Shown here in pieces: positions 13,366-23,665 of a DNA stretch of 32,880 bases (positions within the stretch are counted from its first letter, which is position 1; each line of letters starts with the position of its first letter). The translations under genes and the position numbers were made by a program. The stretch is from Candidatus Azambacteria bacterium RIFCSPLOWO2_01_FULL_44_84 (lineage in GTDB: Bacteria > Patescibacteriota > Minisyncoccia > UBA10092): positions 1-32,880 of the forward strand of contig MEYR01000040.1 in assembly GCA_001774075.1 (NCBI GenBank), in the 5' to 3' direction. The notes below the pieces were generated by a model. That model did no database searches, was not told the DNA's origin, and saw only the letters and a list, made by a program, of their open reading frames with translations.

Positions 13366-13494
13366 AAGATATTTTGAGCTCAAAATATCTTGATATATTA
13401 TATTATTTTTTTGTTTTTGACAAATCGGGGGTTTTGAAGTTTGATAATAATCAATTGTTCTCTAAAAACACAACTGTCGCGGGCGGGGACAAAG

Positions 13495-14373
13495 ATGCCG
13501 CCATGGGTCGCATATCTTTTTTTAGTTATTACCGGTCTCACTGTTTTTATAGTTTTGCGGCTTAAAAGAAAATTTATCGCCGCTTCAAACCTTCATCAAG
13601 CGGTGAGAGCCGCCGAAAGGCTTTCTCAAGAAGGATTTACGCCTATCATAAATTTGCTCGGTGAGCACTATCATTCCCGTGAGAAAATAGAGCGGACCGT
13701 CGATCAATACCGTTATTTGATTGATCTTTTGGCGCAATCCGGCATCCAAGGAAAGATATCCATAAAGCCGACCCAGATAGGTCTCGCTTTTTCCAAAGAC
13801 CTCTATCATCAAAATCTTATTGCGATCCTACGGAGGGCCAATACTCACAATCCGAGAATTCAGGTTGAAATTGATATTGAAAACGCGCGGTACAAACATG
13901 ACACACTCGGCGTTTTCCTGGAAATCCCCGGCGAATACGACGCGCGTCAGGCCGTCCAGGTTTATTTTTACGGTTCCAGCGAAAAAGACATCGAGAAGCT
14001 TTTGAGGCAGAACAGGAAAATTCGTTTGGTCAAAGGCGCTTACGCTGAAGGCGATCTGACGCCCGCACAGGTTGAAGATCAGATGCGTAACTGTTCCCAG
14101 CACCTTGTGCTTTGCGCCAGAGATCCGGCAATTGCCACGGTGCGTGACGAACATTTGTTAAGGACCATTATTGAGTTTGTAACTGACATAAAAACCATCC
14201 AAAGGGACAGTTTTGAAATCCAAATGCTTTACGGCCGTCGGGACGATCTTAAGCGGTTTTACAAAGCCCACGGTTATCGGGTGGCGGTTTACATGCCGGT
14301 CGGCCCCGCCTACAAGGCTATTCCTTATATCTGGCGTCGGGTTAAAGAATTAATTAAGTCTCGTTTTAGATAA
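13495..14373 (+). CDS. Proline dehydrogenase family protein with N-terminal TM anchor (track ORF begins at TTG 13441; ATG 13495 preferred)
   Basis: IRLVKGAYAEG, FEIQMLYGRRDDLKRFYKAHGYRVAVYMPVGPAYKAIPYIWRRVKE typical of PRODH; N-terminal VAYLFLVITGLTVFIVL. Confidence 0.85.
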   Translation: MPPWVAYLFLVITGLTVFIVLRLKRKFIAASNLHQAVRAAERLSQEGFTPIINLLGEHYHSREKIERTVDQYRYLIDLLAQSGIQGKISIKPTQIGLAFSKDLYHQNLIAILRRANTHNPRIQVEIDIENARYKHDTLGVFLEIPGEYDARQAVQVYFYGSSEKDIEKLLRQNRKIRLVKGAYAEGDLTPAQVEDQMRNCSQHLVLCARDPAIATVRDEHLLRTIIEFVTDIKTIQRDSFEIQMLYGRRDDLKRFYKAHGYRVAVYMPVGPAYKAIPYIWRRVKELIKSRFR

Positions 14374-14400
14374 ACCCCAAATCGGGGGTTTAATTTTTTA
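14371..14400 (+). terminator. Terminator after the PRODH gene
   Basis: AAACCCCAAATCGGGGGTTTAATTTTTT. Confidence 0.7.
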
Positions 14401-14587
14401 TAAGACCTGAGGCGAAAACCATGGCCGTAAGGCCATGGATGAAGCCAAGCCCCGGAGCGAAAGGCGGAGGGGTCTTAAGCAACTCCCCGTCGCTATAAAG
14501 CGGCTGAATAGCCGCGCGACGGAAGGTATCTCTTGCGGCGCCCGAAGGGCGTATCAAGAGATATCACGGGCGTAAGCCCGTGGAGTT
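14401..14587 (+). ncRNA. Candidate multi-branched structured RNA (unclassified; possibly HEARO/omega-RNA-like)
   Basis: Helix TAAGACC (14401-07)/GGTCTTA (14471-77). AACTCC (14481-86)/GGAGTT (14582-87) encloses three hairpins. Hairpins 14419-38 (GTAA loop), 14487-14522, 14527-14563, 14565-14582 (GTAA loop). Confidence 0.65.
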
Positions 14588-14616
14588 TCATAATGATATT
14601 TAACGATGCCTATTTG

Positions 14617-14652
14617 TGTGCCATTACTGTGATATATCACAGTAATGGCACA
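14617..14652. repeat. Perfect 36-bp palindrome upstream of mpa
   Basis: TGTGCCATTACTGTGATATATCACAGTAATGGCACA is identical to its reverse complement. Confidence 0.95.
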
Positions 14653-14684: not shown

Positions 14685-14713
14685 TTGACAAAAACCGAAA
14701 TCTTTTTTATATT
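14685..14713 (+). promoter_or_regulatory. Promoter of the mpa-like gene
   Basis: TTGACA (14685-14690), 17 nt, TATATT (14708-14713). Confidence 0.75.
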
Positions 14714-16664: not shown

Positions 16665-18536
16665 ATGAACGAAAAGCCCAAGATCAGTGACGATTGGGAA
16701 AATGACATTTTTACCGAAGACCGCGAGGAAGAATTGATTTATCCCTATATTTTAAGGGACGCGCGGGAAGAAGATGACGATGACAGCGGTATTATCAAAA
16801 CTGTACTCTTTAAGAAAAAGATGGGTCGTTATTACGACTGGGATGGGAATCTGCCGATGCTTTTTGGCAGTGAAACCGAATTGGGTTTTCATATCGTCAA
16901 AGAGTTTGACTTGCAAAAATCGCGCCGCATTTATTATTGTCCGGAAGCAATGTATCCGTTTTTCTTGAGAAGGGTTGCCGAAGCGGCAAACGCCTTCAGC
17001 CGCGATCCGGAAACGCCGTGGTTGCGCTCGGCTCTCAACCATTTCGACATTGCGCGCGCTAAGCTTATGGCCAAGGCGGCCGTCGAAGAAAGTGTAAGCG
17101 GACTGCCCGACGCAATTAAAGAAAAAATTTCTGAAAAAGGGCTTTCGGCGAAAGATTTCTTTTTTGGCGAGGTCGGCGTTTTTCTGCCGAACTCATCGCG
17201 CTTGTATATTGACTGCGGTCACCTTGAGTATTCAATAGCCGAATGCCGCGAACCAAGGGACGTAATTTCACTTGAAAAAGCGATGGAATCCTGGATTATG
17301 CAGGTTAAGCCGGAGATTGAAGAGTTCAGCGGCAGGCGAGTCCGTTTGCTTAAGGATAACACCGACCGGAAAGGCAACAGCTACGCCTGCCATACCAATT
17401 TTCTGCTGGGCCGAAGATTTTTCGAGGAAATCTACAAAGGTAATGTCTGGAGCAAGTCATGGGCTAGTTTTCTCGTGACAAGCATCATTTATACCGGTGC
17501 CGGCAAAGTCGGCTCGGAGCGCGGTCAGGAACCCTGCGAATTCCAGATTTCCCAGCGCGCCGATCACTTTTTCCAGATGTTCGGAATGGATACGATGGCG
17601 GATAGGCCGATCATTAATTTCCGCGGCGAAGCTCTGGCGGATGACGAAAAATGGGGCCGCCTGCACGTCATTCTTCACGATTCGAATATGTCGGAATGGG
17701 CGATTTATCTGAAAATGGGCGTTCAGGCGCTGGTTTTGAACATGATGCAGGCCCATTTTTACAACAAGATTGCGGACGATGATTACACCAAATATATTCT
17801 CAAACATCCGATAAGTGATCTGTGGGCGGTTTCGCGCGATCTGACTTGCAAAATCCCTCTGTTTCTTGAAGCCAACGTTCTTGACGCTGACGGCATTGAG
17901 ACCGAATCGGTTTCACCGATAAAAATACAAAAAGTCTGGCACGATTGCGCCAAAAGATTTTACGAAGCGCGCCGTTATTATCCCCGCTGGATTCATGACG
18001 TTCTCTGGAAATGGGGACAGGTTCTCAATTGGCTGGAAGAAGATAATCCTCAACTCGACCGTGTTTTAGACTGGCGGATCAAGAAAAATATCTGTGAACG
18101 GGTTATTGCCCGACGCGCCGAAAAGGGTCAGGAGCTTTCCTGGCATGACGGCAAAATCAAAAACATTGACGGTCTTTACCACGACCTCGGTCCCGACGGT
18201 TATTACAACAAAGCCTTGCGCGCCGGATTGGTGGAGCGCATTGTTACTGACGCCGAGATTCAGAAATTCCGAGAGAACGCCCCCGAAGACACCCGCGCCT
18301 GGGCGCGCTCACAGTTTATCAAGCATTATCTTCCGCATCTTCTTGACGTCAGCTGGGAGATGGTCTCTTTCCTTCTCAAAAAAGACGATATTTTTCAGAT
18401 TCCGGTGATCGTTGAGCTGGAGCCTCTTAAGGGAACCCGCCGGCAAGTCCAAGACATGTTTTTCAGACATTTGTCGTTTGAAGCCTTTTCCTGGGATTAT
18501 CTTGAGAAATTCTTGAACAAGAGAAGCCCCTTCTAA
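16665..18536 (+). CDS. Dop-like member of the PafA/Dop family (paralog 1)
   Basis: LFGSETELG, RLYIDCGHLEYSIAEC, CEFQISQRADH, WGRLHVILHDSNMSEWAIYLKMG; C-terminal LEPLKGTRRQV similar to Dop LEPLRGSKAHV. HENY replaced by HTNF. Confidence 0.88.
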   Translation: MNEKPKISDDWENDIFTEDREEELIYPYILRDAREEDDDDSGIIKTVLFKKKMGRYYDWDGNLPMLFGSETELGFHIVKEFDLQKSRRIYYCPEAMYPFFLRRVAEAANAFSRDPETPWLRSALNHFDIARAKLMAKAAVEESVSGLPDAIKEKISEKGLSAKDFFFGEVGVFLPNSSRLYIDCGHLEYSIAECREPRDVISLEKAMESWIMQVKPEIEEFSGRRVRLLKDNTDRKGNSYACHTNFLLGRRFFEEIYKGNVWSKSWASFLVTSIIYTGAGKVGSERGQEPCEFQISQRADHFFQMFGMDTMADRPIINFRGEALADDEKWGRLHVILHDSNMSEWAIYLKMGVQALVLNMMQAHFYNKIADDDYTKYILKHPISDLWAVSRDLTCKIPLFLEANVLDADGIETESVSPIKIQKVWHDCAKRFYEARRYYPRWIHDVLWKWGQVLNWLEEDNPQLDRVLDWRIKKNICERVIARRAEKGQELSWHDGKIKNIDGLYHDLGPDGYYNKALRAGLVERIVTDAEIQKFRENAPEDTRAWARSQFIKHYLPHLLDVSWEMVSFLLKKDDIFQIPVIVELEPLKGTRRQVQDMFFRHLSFEAFSWDYLEKFLNKRSPF

Positions 18537-18560
18537 AATCCGACTTGAAGTCGGATTTTT
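18535..18560 (+). terminator. Terminator after Dop-like paralog 1
   Basis: AAAATCCGACTTGAAGTCGGATTTTT. Confidence 0.8.
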
Positions 18561-18665
18561 AAATTCGAAATTCGAATATCGAAATTCGAAACAAATTCAA
18601 ATAATTAAAATTAAAAATTCTAAACCGGTTTAAGTTTTTGAATTTATAATTTAGGTATTGTTTCG

Positions 18666-18691
18666 TGTTTCGGATTTCGTGCTTCGGATTT
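18666..18691. repeat. Dispersed repeat copy (26 nt identical to 12861-12886)
   Basis: TGTTTCGGATTTCGTGCTTCGGATTT. Confidence 0.85.
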
Positions 18692-18698
18692 AATCTTG

Positions 18699-18710
18699 TG
18701 TTATCTTTGG
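18699..18710 (+). promoter_or_regulatory. Shared extended -10-like element TGTTATCTTTGG (copy 1)
   Basis: Identical 12-mer at 20639-20650; both followed by YTCTTTGA and an AT-rich leader. Confidence 0.5.
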
Positions 18711-18753
18711 TTTGTTCTTTGAAATTTTAATCCGCCAACCGGAGGAGTTTTGC

Positions 18754-20373
18754 GTGGACCGGAGGATAGTAGGAGAAGAAATTGAGTATTCCAAAGTTTT
18801 AAGAGTAAAAGATTCTGAAGGTAAGTATGTTTATCGGGAGGCGGATGATGAATTTATGCGCCAGATCTTCAAGCAGATTGTTGAGCCCGAACATCCACTT
18901 CAACATGTACAGGACGGGTTTTTTATGGGAAACGGCGGCCAAATTAGGCTTGAACCCAGCGGTCAGCACGTTGAGATAAACACGCCGGAGTGTCTCACCT
19001 TGCGGGATATTGTAGCGCAGGATAAGGCGACCGAGCTTACAGCGCTTCGGCTTACTGCCGCGATTAAGACCAAATTCAATACCGATGTGGTTTTCCACAA
19101 AAAGAATTCCGATTTTCAATCTATTTTTTCAATTGAAGACCGTATCGTTTTGACCGCGGGTAATACAAGGGGATGCCATGAAAATTATTGCGTCGAATCG
19201 GAATTAATATCGGAAATCCAAACGGCGTACCAGAAAACGATCAACCCAAGTTCGTTTCCTGGTTATGAGCAGTTAAGTCTCCGACACCTTTTGCTTTTTA
19301 TGGAGACCCGCCAGATTTTAAGCGGCGGCGGTGGTCTCAAGCGCTTGGCCCGCAAAAACGGTCAAAGCGAGATTATTTATTGCGTTTCGCCTCGCGCATT
19401 GCATACGCATCTTAACTTCGGCAGGTCGACTACCGTTGACGAAACACGTGGCATCATTAACGCGGGCCGCGCCAACGAAGCGCTCGCCGATCCCCACCGA
19501 TTCGGTCGGCTCCATATAGACAGCGGCGACGCCAATATGGCAGAGGTCAGCACTTTTTTGAAATTCGGCACGACCTCTGCGGTACTCGAGATGATCGAAA
19601 ACAAATGTTGGGATGAAACACTTTTGGGCGAAGATCCGGATTATAACGCTTCTTTATTTAGGGCCATCTCGCGCGATCTAACTTGCCGGAGCATCCCGAT
19701 CCGGTTAACGAACGGCGATATCTACGGCGCAATAGACATACAGAAGTTATTTGCCAAGCGATGGAAGGAATATGTTAAGACGCTCGGTTTCCCGGAAGAA
19801 AAAGCGCGGCTTTCCGAACTTTGGCTGGAAGCGCTGCGGTGTCTTGAAACCGACGACCCCAAGGCCGGTCGCTTGCTTGACTGGAAGATAAAACTTCAGT
19901 TTTTCAAAAAATATTGCAAAAAGAAATCCCTGCCGATTGAGCATGAACGGATCGCTACTCTTGATTTGGAGTATCACAATCCAGATCTGCAAAATGGCAT
20001 TTACAACCGTCTTAAAAATAGAGGTTTAGTCGAGCGACTGATTTACGATAGGGATATCGAAAATGCTATCTTGATACCGCCCCAAAATACCCGCGCGAGG
20101 CTTCGGCGGCATTTGTTTGACATTTTTACCGCTTTAGATGTAAAATTCAGCGTGAGATGGGACTTTATCGGTTTTAAATCGGAGAGGTTCTCCGAGTTCG
20201 AATTCCAGTCAACCACCCCCATTGATCTATTAGACCCTTTCGTTTATAGCGTTGAATCCCTTGACATCACCAAAAAAGAAAAGATTATTGTTGAACTTCT
20301 GGAAACCGTTAAAAGAAAACATGACGAAACTAGGGTAGGAGGATCGGACCATGGCGGAGCAGAAGCGGGTTAA
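18754..20373 (+). CDS. Dop/PafA-family paralog 2, catalytic Asp missing; GTG start preferred over 18712
   Basis: GTG 18754 preceded by GGAGGAG (18741-18747). VGEEIEY, CHENY, RGIINAGRANEALADPHRFGRLHIDSGDANMAEVSTFLKFGTT. The expected RLYxD region reads RLEPSGQHVEINTPEC. Confidence 0.88.
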   Translation: MDRRIVGEEIEYSKVLRVKDSEGKYVYREADDEFMRQIFKQIVEPEHPLQHVQDGFFMGNGGQIRLEPSGQHVEINTPECLTLRDIVAQDKATELTALRLTAAIKTKFNTDVVFHKKNSDFQSIFSIEDRIVLTAGNTRGCHENYCVESELISEIQTAYQKTINPSSFPGYEQLSLRHLLLFMETRQILSGGGGLKRLARKNGQSEIIYCVSPRALHTHLNFGRSTTVDETRGIINAGRANEALADPHRFGRLHIDSGDANMAEVSTFLKFGTTSAVLEMIENKCWDETLLGEDPDYNASLFRAISRDLTCRSIPIRLTNGDIYGAIDIQKLFAKRWKEYVKTLGFPEEKARLSELWLEALRCLETDDPKAGRLLDWKIKLQFFKKYCKKKSLPIEHERIATLDLEYHNPDLQNGIYNRLKNRGLVERLIYDRDIENAILIPPQNTRARLRRHLFDIFTALDVKFSVRWDFIGFKSERFSEFEFQSTTPIDLLDPFVYSVESLDITKKEKIIVELLETVKRKHDETRVGGSDHGGAEAG

Positions 20374-20557
20374 GAAGGGCAAGAATGAAGAGGTTGAGCC
20401 GGAGGAGGCCAAGACGGTCAAGAAGACCGTCGAGCAGAGTGCTAAAGAAAAGGAGCGCGATAAAGCGCTTGACGCGCTTGTCGACGAGATCGACGATGTC
20501 TTGGAAGAAAACGCCGAGGAATTCATGAAGTCCTATGTCCAGCGCGGCGGACAATAA
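20351..20557 (+). CDS. pup: Prokaryotic ubiquitin-like protein Pup
   Basis: 68 aa, ends DEIDDVLEENAEEFMKSYVQRGGQ, nearly identical to the mycobacterial Pup C-terminus as I recall it (DEIDDVLEENAEDFVRAYVQKGGQ). Overlaps the preceding gene by 23 nt; RBS GGTAGGAGG. Confidence 0.96.
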   Translation: MAEQKRVKKGKNEEVEPEEAKTVKKTVEQSAKEKERDKALDALVDEIDDVLEENAEEFMKSYVQRGGQ

Positions 20558-20578
20558 TAGATAAAATATAAAAAATAA

Positions 20579-20602
20579 CCGAGTATTTACTCGGATTTTT
20601 TT
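20579..20602 (+). terminator. Terminator after pup
   Basis: CCGAGT-ATTT-ACTCGG then ATTTTTTT. Confidence 0.75.
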
Positions 20603-20638
20603 ATACATAAATTTTGCATTTTGATTTTTGATTTTTTA

Positions 20639-20650
20639 TGTTATCTTTGG
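20639..20650 (+). promoter_or_regulatory. Shared extended -10-like element TGTTATCTTTGG (copy 2)
   Basis: Same 12-mer as 18699-18710, 36 nt upstream of the paralog 3 ATG (20686). Confidence 0.5.
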
Positions 20651-20679
20651 GGCGCTCTTTGATAATTTAAAATCAAGGA

Positions 20680-22167
20680 TTGGACATGCAGAAGCGGCTG
20701 TTTGGCTTGGAAACTGAATATGCCCTTGTGACGGACGAAGAATTCGACTGGCTAGCTATCCAAGAACTTTTGGGCTGTCTCCAGAAACTACCCATTGATC
20801 TTTTCGGTCAGAATACCGACAACTACATTGTAGAGTGCTGGCTTGAAAACGGCGCGAGAATTTATCGCGATCAATCGCATCCGGAATATGCCACGGCCGA
20901 GTGCGAGAATGTTTATAATTTAATTTGCCACGAAAGGGCGGGAGACGAACTGCTTAAAGCCGCTTATGACATTTATTTGCAAAAGCATCCGGAGGCTAGG
21001 GGGAAGATTAGACTTTTAAAAAGCAATTTTGCCGCGCCGAAAATTGATGAGCATACTTCCGAAAGATCCGAGGAGGTTTCTTGGGGTTCTCATGAAAATT
21101 ATCTTGTTGCCAAAAAAGCGAAAATTCGTTTACTGGAGGAGAATCTCCCTCCAATGCTCGTAAGTCGTCAGATTTTCAGTGGCGCAGGCCATATCCAGCC
21201 TCTGCTGGAAAGGTTTGTGCTTTCGGGCCGTCCCTATCATCTGACTCAAGTCGGAAATATTAAAGACGGCGGCCACGCCAAGCAAGCCTTTTTCGTGCGC
21301 GCGCACAGCGAAGCGTCCGATATTGACCATGATCGTTGGTGGCGAATACAGGTCAGCTCATCGGAATCAAACATGCTTGAATTTCCTGTGTGGTTGCGGT
21401 TTATGACTACGCACTTTTGTTTGAGAATGGCGGAAGAAGGTCTTGGTATCAGTAAAGCAAGATATCTCGGTCAGAATTCCACGGATGTTTTCAAAAAGAT
21501 CGGTGAAGATATTCTGCTTAAGGCCACTATTCCGACCCGTTCCTACCATTACTACAGAGCGTTAGAATTCCAGCGCTATTATCTTGAACGCGCTAAACGC
21601 CTCGCACCATTGAACGCTGAAGAGCAAATGGCGCTTCGGGACTGGGAATGGATTTTAGGGCTTTTGGATTGTGATTTGGAACAAGATGAAAATTTATTCC
21701 GTCTTTTCGGAGTTTTGGACTGGGCCACTAAGCTCTGGCTAATAAAACAGCTGATGAGGAAGAATAATCTGGCGCTCGATTCACAGAAAGTCGCGGCCTT
21801 GGACGCCTGTTATCATCTTTTGGGAGGGGCGCCGGGAGAAAGCGTATGGCTGGCGCTTGAGGCCAAGGACAGGATTGAGCCTTTCATCAAAAGATTTGTC
21901 AGACCCGAAGACATTAAACGCGCCATAAATACCCCTCCGGATTCCAGGGCGCGACTTCGCTCGGATTTTCTGAAATTATCCAAAAAAATTAAAGCCGAAT
22001 CTCCGGAATTCGAGCTTTCTGTCACGCGCATGGATTGGGGAAATGCCTGGTTTTATACCGGCAAGAATAATAATCGGGGATGTGTTGATTTTGGCATTAA
22101 AAATCCCTTTTTGAAAAAGTCAAACTCGTTGGAACGTTTTCGCGAGAAATATGCCAATGGAACGTAG
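20680..22167 (+). CDS. PafA-like Pup ligase family protein (paralog 3); start may be ATG 20686
   Basis: KRLFGLETEYAL, NGARIYRDQSHPEYATAEC, WGSHENYLV, C-terminal ...CVDFGIKNPF resembling PafA ...KDPF. Confidence 0.88.
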   Translation: MDMQKRLFGLETEYALVTDEEFDWLAIQELLGCLQKLPIDLFGQNTDNYIVECWLENGARIYRDQSHPEYATAECENVYNLICHERAGDELLKAAYDIYLQKHPEARGKIRLLKSNFAAPKIDEHTSERSEEVSWGSHENYLVAKKAKIRLLEENLPPMLVSRQIFSGAGHIQPLLERFVLSGRPYHLTQVGNIKDGGHAKQAFFVRAHSEASDIDHDRWWRIQVSSSESNMLEFPVWLRFMTTHFCLRMAEEGLGISKARYLGQNSTDVFKKIGEDILLKATIPTRSYHYYRALEFQRYYLERAKRLAPLNAEEQMALRDWEWILGLLDCDLEQDENLFRLFGVLDWATKLWLIKQLMRKNNLALDSQKVAALDACYHLLGGAPGESVWLALEAKDRIEPFIKRFVRPEDIKRAINTPPDSRARLRSDFLKLSKKIKAESPEFELSVTRMDWGNAWFYTGKNNNRGCVDFGIKNPFLKKSNSLERFREKYANGT

Positions 22168-23665
22168 GCTGATGGGCGAGGAGTTAGAGCTGGGTTTGTT
22201 TGTTGCCGAATCCAAAGTCGGCGCCACCGATCATCCATCGTCTTATTTGCTATCGCATCTTCAAGACTGCGGCATTAAATTAGTCGTTTTTAACGGAATT
22301 ATTGATAATTTTGGCGAAATACCCTGCGCGGAACTCGAAAGAATTTATTATTATTGGCTTGAAAACGGAGCGAAGCTCTACACTGATACCGGCGATCACC
22401 CGGAATATGCTACTCCGGAGTGCCAAAGCGCCAGTGAGGTAGTGGCTCATGATAAAGCCGCTGAAATTATATTAAGAAACCTCGCTTTATCGGCGCGCGA
22501 TAAAGTGAAATTAAACATTATAAAAAATAATGTTTGCTATGCCCCGGGGCTTAAAGCTATCGATGTTTTGAATGGCGAAACTTCGTGGGGATTGCATGAA
22601 AATTACCTGGTATCGTCAAGTATTTCACCCTTTGTTTCTCGCGAAGATCAGCCCATAAACGATTTGATTCCGCATTTAGTAAGCCGTACCGTTTACACGG
22701 GAGCCGGGCATATCAAGTTTGACGGTTCCGATTCCAAATACGTGCTTTCAAGCCGCGTTTCATTTTTGGGAAAAGTTTTTGGCGGTTCAACGGGCGCCCT
22801 AAAACCTTTTATCATTAACCGATCGGAAGCGCATACTGACGAAAATAATTTTGGGCGCGTTCAGATTGCTTCAACCGAAGCTAATATGCTGGAATTGCCG
22901 ATTTATTTAAAGTTTTTGACAACCCATTTGTGCTTGCGGCTTCTTGAAGAAGGCTGGCGCTTGCCTGAGGGCTTTGCGCTAGCCAGTCCGATCAGCGTCT
23001 CCGCGTTGAATGAAGATTTGAACTGTAAACTCAATCTGCCGCTTGTGAATGGCGACTCGGTTTCCTCCATAGCGATACAGCGGATGTATTTGGAACAAGC
23101 CCAAAGACTTTCGCCGCAGAGCGATGAAGAACGTCGCGGGCTTGAATTATGGGCCTGGGTTTTGGATCTTCTTTCCCAGGACTTGACCCAAAAAGAAAAT
23201 TTCAAGGGGCTCGTCGGAGTTTTGGACTGGGCGACTAAATTGTATCTGATTAAAGAAAACGCGGCCCGGCATAATCGCTCGCTTGGCGATCCCAGAATTC
23301 TCGTTAAGAATTTCAGTTATCATTCTTTAGACCCTTCTCCCAAAGAAAGTTTGTGGAGTCGGATTTGCGCTCAAGATAAAGAAAAGCCGTTTATCTGCCG
23401 CATCGTAACACCCGCTGATATTGAAGAGGCTATCCGTAAAGCGCCCAAAGGGCGCGCCGCTTTGCGGGGGGAATTTATTAGGCTCGCACACGATTTCTCT
23501 AGTGAGATCGTATTAGGCGCTATCGATTGGCAGGAAGCCAGATGTCTTGTCAAAAACATTAATCAAGTGCTGAAAATTGATTTTGGCTATTCCAATCCTT
23601 TTGCCGAGTTCTCTGAAACTCTGGAATTTTTAAAACAAACCTTAGGAAATACCCCGAACCATTAG
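22151..23665 (+). CDS. PafA-like Pup ligase family protein (paralog 4); overlaps paralog 3
   Basis: RRLMGEELELGL, NGAKLYTDTGDHPEYATPEC, WGLHENYLV, FGRVQIASTEANMLELPIYLKF, shared GVLDWATKL with paralog 3. Confidence 0.88.
   Translation: MPMERRLMGEELELGLFVAESKVGATDHPSSYLLSHLQDCGIKLVVFNGIIDNFGEIPCAELERIYYYWLENGAKLYTDTGDHPEYATPECQSASEVVAHDKAAEIILRNLALSARDKVKLNIIKNNVCYAPGLKAIDVLNGETSWGLHENYLVSSSISPFVSREDQPINDLIPHLVSRTVYTGAGHIKFDGSDSKYVLSSRVSFLGKVFGGSTGALKPFIINRSEAHTDENNFGRVQIASTEANMLELPIYLKFLTTHLCLRLLEEGWRLPEGFALASPISVSALNEDLNCKLNLPLVNGDSVSSIAIQRMYLEQAQRLSPQSDEERRGLELWAWVLDLLSQDLTQKENFKGLVGVLDWATKLYLIKENAARHNRSLGDPRILVKNFSYHSLDPSPKESLWSRICAQDKEKPFICRIVTPADIEEAIRKAPKGRAALRGEFIRLAHDFSSEIVLGAIDWQEARCLVKNINQVLKIDFGYSNPFAEFSETLEFLKQTLGNTPNH

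Follow-up and report, generated by a model that had tools for sequence, protein, structure and literature searches.

Locus and predicted fold

The 32,880-nucleotide stretch of DNA analysed here (the window) carries a proline dehydrogenase gene (13441 to 14373) and, downstream of it, the proteasomal ATPase gene mpa. The intergenic segment between them, at 14401 to 14587, had been proposed from a sequence-only reading to encode a multibranched structured RNA. All of the stems named in that reading were found, in place or a few bases off, including the GTAA hairpin CCATGGCC/GGCCATGG (14419 to 14438), AACTCC with GGAGTT, CCGTCGC/GCGACGG, TATCTCTTG/CAAGAGATA, and the right hairpin at 14564 to 14583. 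The absence of a reading frame was confirmed at the level of 80 codons, with no ORF of at least that length overlapping 14401 to 14587. Folded as RNA, the plus strand of this segment gave −108 kcal/mol against a mean of −72 for dinucleotide shuffles (z = −7.8), far better than the shuffled sequences, and with DNA parameters the z score was −7.9. The minus strand folded nearly as well (z = −6.2), as expected of DNA palindromes.

Comparison with relatives placed the unit slightly beyond the earlier limits, as a TTAT target at 14398 to 14401 followed by an element of 190 bp at 14402 to 14591, which has no ORF and is too short for a transposase gene (Table 1). These boundaries were set by analogy, from multicopy relatives and one empty site. 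The palindromes near the two ends have the same polarity, and there are no inverted terminal repeats. The GCC within the ATGAAGCC tract that follows the left hairpin pairs with GGC at 14411 to 14413. Between the element and mpa lies a promoter-like sequence, TTGACA-17-TATATT (14685 to 14713).

Table 1. Features of the element upstream of mpa and of its left flank
Feature	Position	Strand	Evidence
Terminator-like hairpin and T tract 3' of the proline dehydrogenase gene; element at the T tract	14371–14397	+	
C_L, putative left cleavage site and target TTAT, stays in left flank	14398–14401	+	TTAT/TTAC start in 39/40 full-length relatives; homology of near-identical copies begins here
Helix 1, 5' arm TAAGACC, partner 14471–14477	14401–14407	+	Covaries: TTAAACC/GGTTTAA in relatives, TTAGCCC/GGGGCTAA in G185
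Element, very probably non-autonomous IS200/IS605 type, 190 bp, no ORF	14402–14591	+	Covariance-model match 14398–14591
G_L, proposed left guide AAAA	14415–14418	+	Guide/cleavage-site rule; function would be as in IS608 (PMC5934647)
Left-end hairpin CCATGGCC-GTAA-GGCCATGG	14419–14438	+	Both sides changed in 4/8 pairs (relatives); same position in autonomous L039 and G319
Tract ATGAAGCC 3' of left hairpin	14439–14446	+	Near-invariant in A3; ATGAAG common to autonomous elements
Helix 1, 3' arm GGTCTTA	14471–14477	+	Covariation with 5' arm in relatives
Internal branched domain closed by AACTCC/GGAGTT, with stems CCGTCGC/GCGACGG and TATCTCTTG/CAAGAGATA	14481–14588	+	Kept in G269 and G337 copies
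G_R, proposed right guide GATA	14560–14563	+	Guide/cleavage-site rule
Right-end hairpin TCACGGGC-GTAA-GCCCGTGG	14564–14583	+	Pattern in 20/387 class genomes; ends of L039 and G319 elements
C_R, putative right cleavage site TCAT, last bases of element	14588–14591	+	Right edge in multicopy relatives; empty site

Homologues and covariation

When genomes of the same class were searched with BLAST, only the 3' hairpin CCACGGGCGTAAGCCCGTGGAG was at first recurrent. A pattern search for this hairpin matched 20 of 387 class genomes, while a reversed-pattern control matched none, and the loci so retrieved yielded two full-length homologues, in genomes G269 and G337; a second G337 copy was added by the model search. 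The homologues of G269 and G337 shared 76 to 78% DNA identity with the window copy. In the alignment of the four sequences, 98.1% of the pair cells of a 52-pair structure were kept, a percentage biased upwards by a structure drawn partly from the same sequences. Both sides had changed in 11 of the 52 pairs, compared with 0 to 2 for controls with slid partners. These compensatory changes weigh more than the percentage paired, within an alignment whose four sequences are few. The fold and the covariation, for which the sequence-only reading had proposed checks, were borne out, with the architecture retained in homologues from two other host families. A search of the genome for further copies, also proposed there, gave none, by sequence or by covariance model. 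BLAST searches of plasmids and phages with the element were without a match.

A dispersed family with shared ends

A covariance model, R1, built from three of the four homologous sequences matched relatives in 30 of the 387 same-class genomes, many of them with multiple copies; the weak matches have mainly the two ends in common. Members of the family measure 120 to 250 bp, and other subfamilies combine the same ends with quite different cores. Near-identical copies at unrelated sites and with sharp edges were observed within G337 (2 copies), G185 (3), G036 (4 aligned), G274 (5), G198 (2), G078 (2), G064 (2), and G081 (3). Of 40 copies, 39 had TTAT or TTAC as their left edge; the model itself starts with TTAT, and independent support for this edge comes from the point at which copy-to-copy homology ends. 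The right edge was TCAT, CTAT, or a close variant. None of the seven same-family genomes searched contained a copy, and the patchy distribution suggests horizontal spread.

Twelve of 39 copies lie 3' of terminator-like hairpins, compared with 1.6% of background TTAY sites, a background that includes coding DNA. Insertions into the T tract at such hairpins were seen at L166, L168, L185, L194, L195, L199, and in the window.

Empty sites were sought with three pairs of joined flanks, of which one gave a junction-spanning match, and a single empty site is therefore claimed. In this case a copy in G064 interrupts a small membrane-protein gene that is intact in G125, of the same genus, and the alignment places exactly one element between GATTTAT and TTAA, with no target duplication beyond the AT common to both edges. 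At the other G064 site the match covered one side only, and for the G081 site nothing but its own two flanks was retrieved. When the flanks of one G121 copy are joined, a hairpin is re-formed, GCCGTTCGG-TTTTAC-CGAACGGC. For the window copy, the comparison was with G002, which lacks the element and also the proline dehydrogenase gene at that place. Insertion at TTAY (39/40 copies) and a precise empty site without duplication (G064/G125) were seen in relatives.

In a further observation, the element at L187 (G064:C1, about 811815 to 811965) lies in frame within a membrane-protein gene; with 147 bp and no stop in the host frame, it could be read through, adding 49 residues.

These surroundings bear on the earlier proposal that the segment regulates the pup locus in cis. 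A leader of mpa and the pup genes would suit the position of the element, 180 bp upstream of mpa, but the best candidate promoter of mpa lies between the element and the gene, the relatives occupy unrelated sites, one of them within a membrane-protein gene, and in G002 mpa stands directly behind a tRNA with no element. We consider a leader function highly improbable.

Proposed guides and cleavage sites

IS608 inserts 3' of TTAC, and its guides AAAG and GAAT, located 5' of the hairpins, pair with TTAC and TCAA, respectively (PMC5934647). In the present family, the hairpin arm was fixed at 8 bases, and the tetranucleotide immediately 5' of each hairpin was read as the guide. Guide positions 1 and 2 complemented site positions 1 and 2 in 36 of the 38 left ends and 31 of the 38 right ends; for position 4 of guide and site the corresponding counts were 36 and 33. 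The total was 136 of 152, whereas guides shuffled among ends gave a mean of 90, and none of 10,000 trials reached 136; the shuffling ignores the relatedness of the copies, among which there are 16 distinct combinations, and since the rule was spotted on the same sequences before counting, the test is not fully independent. This count replaced an earlier one with variable stem length (111/152), in which several hairpin feet were one base off; both exceeded every shuffle. Part of the misses were due to hairpins misplaced by the script (e.g., L166, L167, L179, and L181).

The window copy fits the rule with AAAA/TTAT on the left and GATA/TCAT on the right, and the IS608 pairs TTAC/AAAG and TCAA/GAAT obey it too. 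Where the target was TTAC the last guide base was G, and most CTAT right ends had AGTA as their guide. Such covariation of target and guide is as the IS608 model predicts, and the family amounts to a natural test of DNA-guided target choice, in which the TTAT/TTAC and TCAT/TCAC/CTAT variants track matching changes in the guides. Copies without a guide/site match may be immobile.

Autonomous relatives and the transposase

Two loci were found in which ends of this kind enclose a transposase gene. On an Elusimicrobium contig (L039), the left hairpin followed by ATGAAGTC, a 144-aa TnpA, and the right hairpin followed by AGTTTCAC succeed one another. In G319, which belongs to the class of the window's host, the order is TTTTAT, left hairpin with ATGAAGGC, a 148-aa TnpA frame, and GATA-right hairpin-TTCTTCAT. 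The common pattern around TnpA is a left-end hairpin with ATGAAG and a right-end hairpin with TTCAY. The ends of the G319 element match, yet its left guide breaks the guide rule. Both proteins passed Pfam Y1_Tnp and also the NCBIfam model transpos_IS200, with 113 and 121 bits, respectively, at a cut-off of 55. They also matched transposase structures that we take to be those of IS608 (2a6m and 2vhg) and ISDra2 (2xm3 and 2xma).

No Y1_Tnp match and no recognisable IS200-type TnpA were found in the genome of the window, whose assembly is 92% complete, and the TnpA search of the class listed none for G269, G337, or G036. Because the window copy is the only one found and its assembly holds no recognisable TnpA, it is probably stranded and immobile now; at 92% completeness the assembly does not amount to proof.

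A different Y1-family enzyme was also considered. The element might be a palindromic repeat of the REP/REPIN type, mobilised by a RAYT (TnpA_REP), as the class has many longer Y1 genes of RAYT length and the palindromes are short; REP/REPIN repeats are likewise short palindromic DNA moved by such an enzyme. Against this, the L039 and G319 transposases scored 23 and 22.5 bits on the REP model, with a cut-off of 80, while passing the IS200 model, and the flanks of the Y1 loci examined lacked this type of hairpin. Unlike REP/REPIN repeats, the present family is linked to an IS200-type transposase and consists of whole elements with distinct left and right ends and a precise empty site. A REP/REPIN origin is thus very unlikely. 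The RAYT-length Y1 genes of relatives were rejected as the source of the mobilising enzyme on account of their flanks, which at the loci examined are without these hairpins.

Nature of the element

The element is almost certainly a non-autonomous member of the IS200/IS605 family (Y1, HUH transposase) of the PATE (palindrome-associated transposable element) kind. The assignment draws on what can be read in the sequences, namely, the ends, the target, the covariation, the dispersal across the family, one empty site, the guide/site correlation, and the hairpin ends of the autonomous relatives. Having no transposase gene of its own, the element would be mobilised in trans by an IS200-type TnpA, which would bind the left and right hairpins of the element as single-stranded DNA. 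Base pairing would bring the tetranucleotide guides AAAA (left) and GATA (right) together with TTAT and TCAT, respectively, where cleavage would occur. The element would leave its site as a single-stranded circle and enter a new one on the 3' side of TTAT, with no duplication of the target. The biochemistry of TnpA, the single-stranded circle, and mobilisation in trans are carried over from IS608 and are presumed to apply here.

The PATEs of Haloquadratum walsbyi have near-terminal palindromes related to IS605-type elements and lack inverted terminal repeats, target duplication, and a transposase (PMC3119063). The present family resembles them in being short, without an ORF and without inverted terminal repeats, with near-terminal palindromes akin to those of IS605-type transposons, no target duplication, and dispersed copies. 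It differs in its bacterial host with a very small genome, its size of 120 to 250 bp, its TTAT/TTAC target, and an additional internal branched core that is conserved by compensatory changes. Forms of approximately 50 bp that have just one hairpin and a right end of the usual kind were noted at L042, L043, and L038, and these resemble the terminal-only PATEs of Haloquadratum.

With IS608 of Helicobacter pylori, an IS200/IS605 family member (PMC5934647), the element shares subterminal hairpins, insertion 3' of a TTAY that is kept on the left, and guides (AANR left and GANN right) that fit C_L and C_R. Unlike IS608, it has neither tnpA nor tnpB; its target is mostly TTAT rather than TTAC, with the guide changed to match, and its right end is TCAT or CTAT rather than TCAA.

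The sequence-only reading had tentatively compared the segment with HEARO/IscB-type RNA. An omega RNA of the HEARO/IscB or TnpB type, intact or orphaned and guiding an RNA-guided nuclease, would be of similar length (the HEARO model has 211 positions; the RNA is approximately 200 nt and multibranched) and would share the branched fold and the IS200/IS605 context, but this context itself accounts for the likeness. A search of the window with the HEARO model RF02033 found nothing, even with the threshold relaxed to E ≤ 10, and the model was also unmatched in the window's own genome and in nine genomes in which the element family or its TnpA occurs. Across these ten genomes, the TnpB-type domain PF07282 gave no match above the cut-off. 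No IscB-like or other nuclease ORF adjoins the element, its neighbours being the proline dehydrogenase gene and mpa. Both the HEARO and the TnpB omega RNA were rejected as candidates, with no RF02033 match, no adjacent RuvC/HNH ORF, and no overlap with a tnpB 3' end, and we regard such an identity as extremely improbable.

The earlier reading had also envisaged a stand-alone mobile-RNA remnant or a new class of noncoding RNA. The mobile part of the former is upheld, whereas the RNA part is not, as the element is best read as DNA; the latter is not needed, since the IS200/IS605 family fits the ends, the target, the empty site, and the guide rule. A noncoding RNA with a function of its own, either the cargo of the mobile element or identical with it, would be in keeping with the internal helices, which covary in the window's subfamily and which TnpA, to judge from IS608, does not need for recognition. 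However, the core differs greatly among subfamilies that have the same ends, the element sits between a terminator and a promoter-like site, and no Rfam family covers it. A search of the whole window with Rfam 15 gave only tRNAs above threshold, and at E ≤ 10 nothing was found in the element region, with chance miRNA matches on a separate palindrome (14617 to 14652). The end hairpins themselves showed no preference for G-U: among 23 distinct left and 29 distinct right hairpins there were 10 G-T and 15 A-C mismatches, small numbers that concern the ends only. Selection on RNA pairing should favour G-U over A-C, and the lack of such an excess fits selection on DNA. A separate RNA function is therefore judged unlikely.

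In the mobile DNA element itself, compensatory changes have preserved the core (14481 to 14588) across three host families, at approximately 77% DNA identity, and by analogy with IS608 the conserved internal branches exceed the known needs of TnpA binding. The core might do more than take part in end recognition by TnpA, e.g., by folding as single-stranded DNA in a way that promotes excision or shields the circle, or as an expressed RNA controlling the trans-acting TnpA, which we consider a conceivable though rather doubtful addition.

The element is ordinary in kind, and the family, new within a known kind of mobile element, seems undescribed. Searches of the open-access literature, outside of which most subscription papers lie, yielded no account of such elements from these bacteria. 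What had appeared to be an orphan structured RNA is in our reading a family of mobile DNA elements that occurs across a class of bacteria with small genomes, and covarying intergenic folds should be compared with transposon ends before they are named as RNAs.

Other features of the locus

In G002 (L204), a genome of the same family, tsaD, a tRNA, and mpa are found in the same order, without the proline dehydrogenase gene and the element. Downstream of the element and ahead of the promoter-like site of mpa, the window contains a perfect 36-bp palindrome, TGTGCCATTACTGTGATA/TATCACAGTAATGGCACA, at 14617 to 14652; it looks like an operator and was not seen in the other loci retrieved for comparison. 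Behind mpa, four adjacent genes (16665 to 23665, at 16665 to 18536, 18712 to 20373, 20680 to 22167, and 22151 to 23665) each match Pup_ligase (PF03136); the PafA/Dop family appears to have expanded here.
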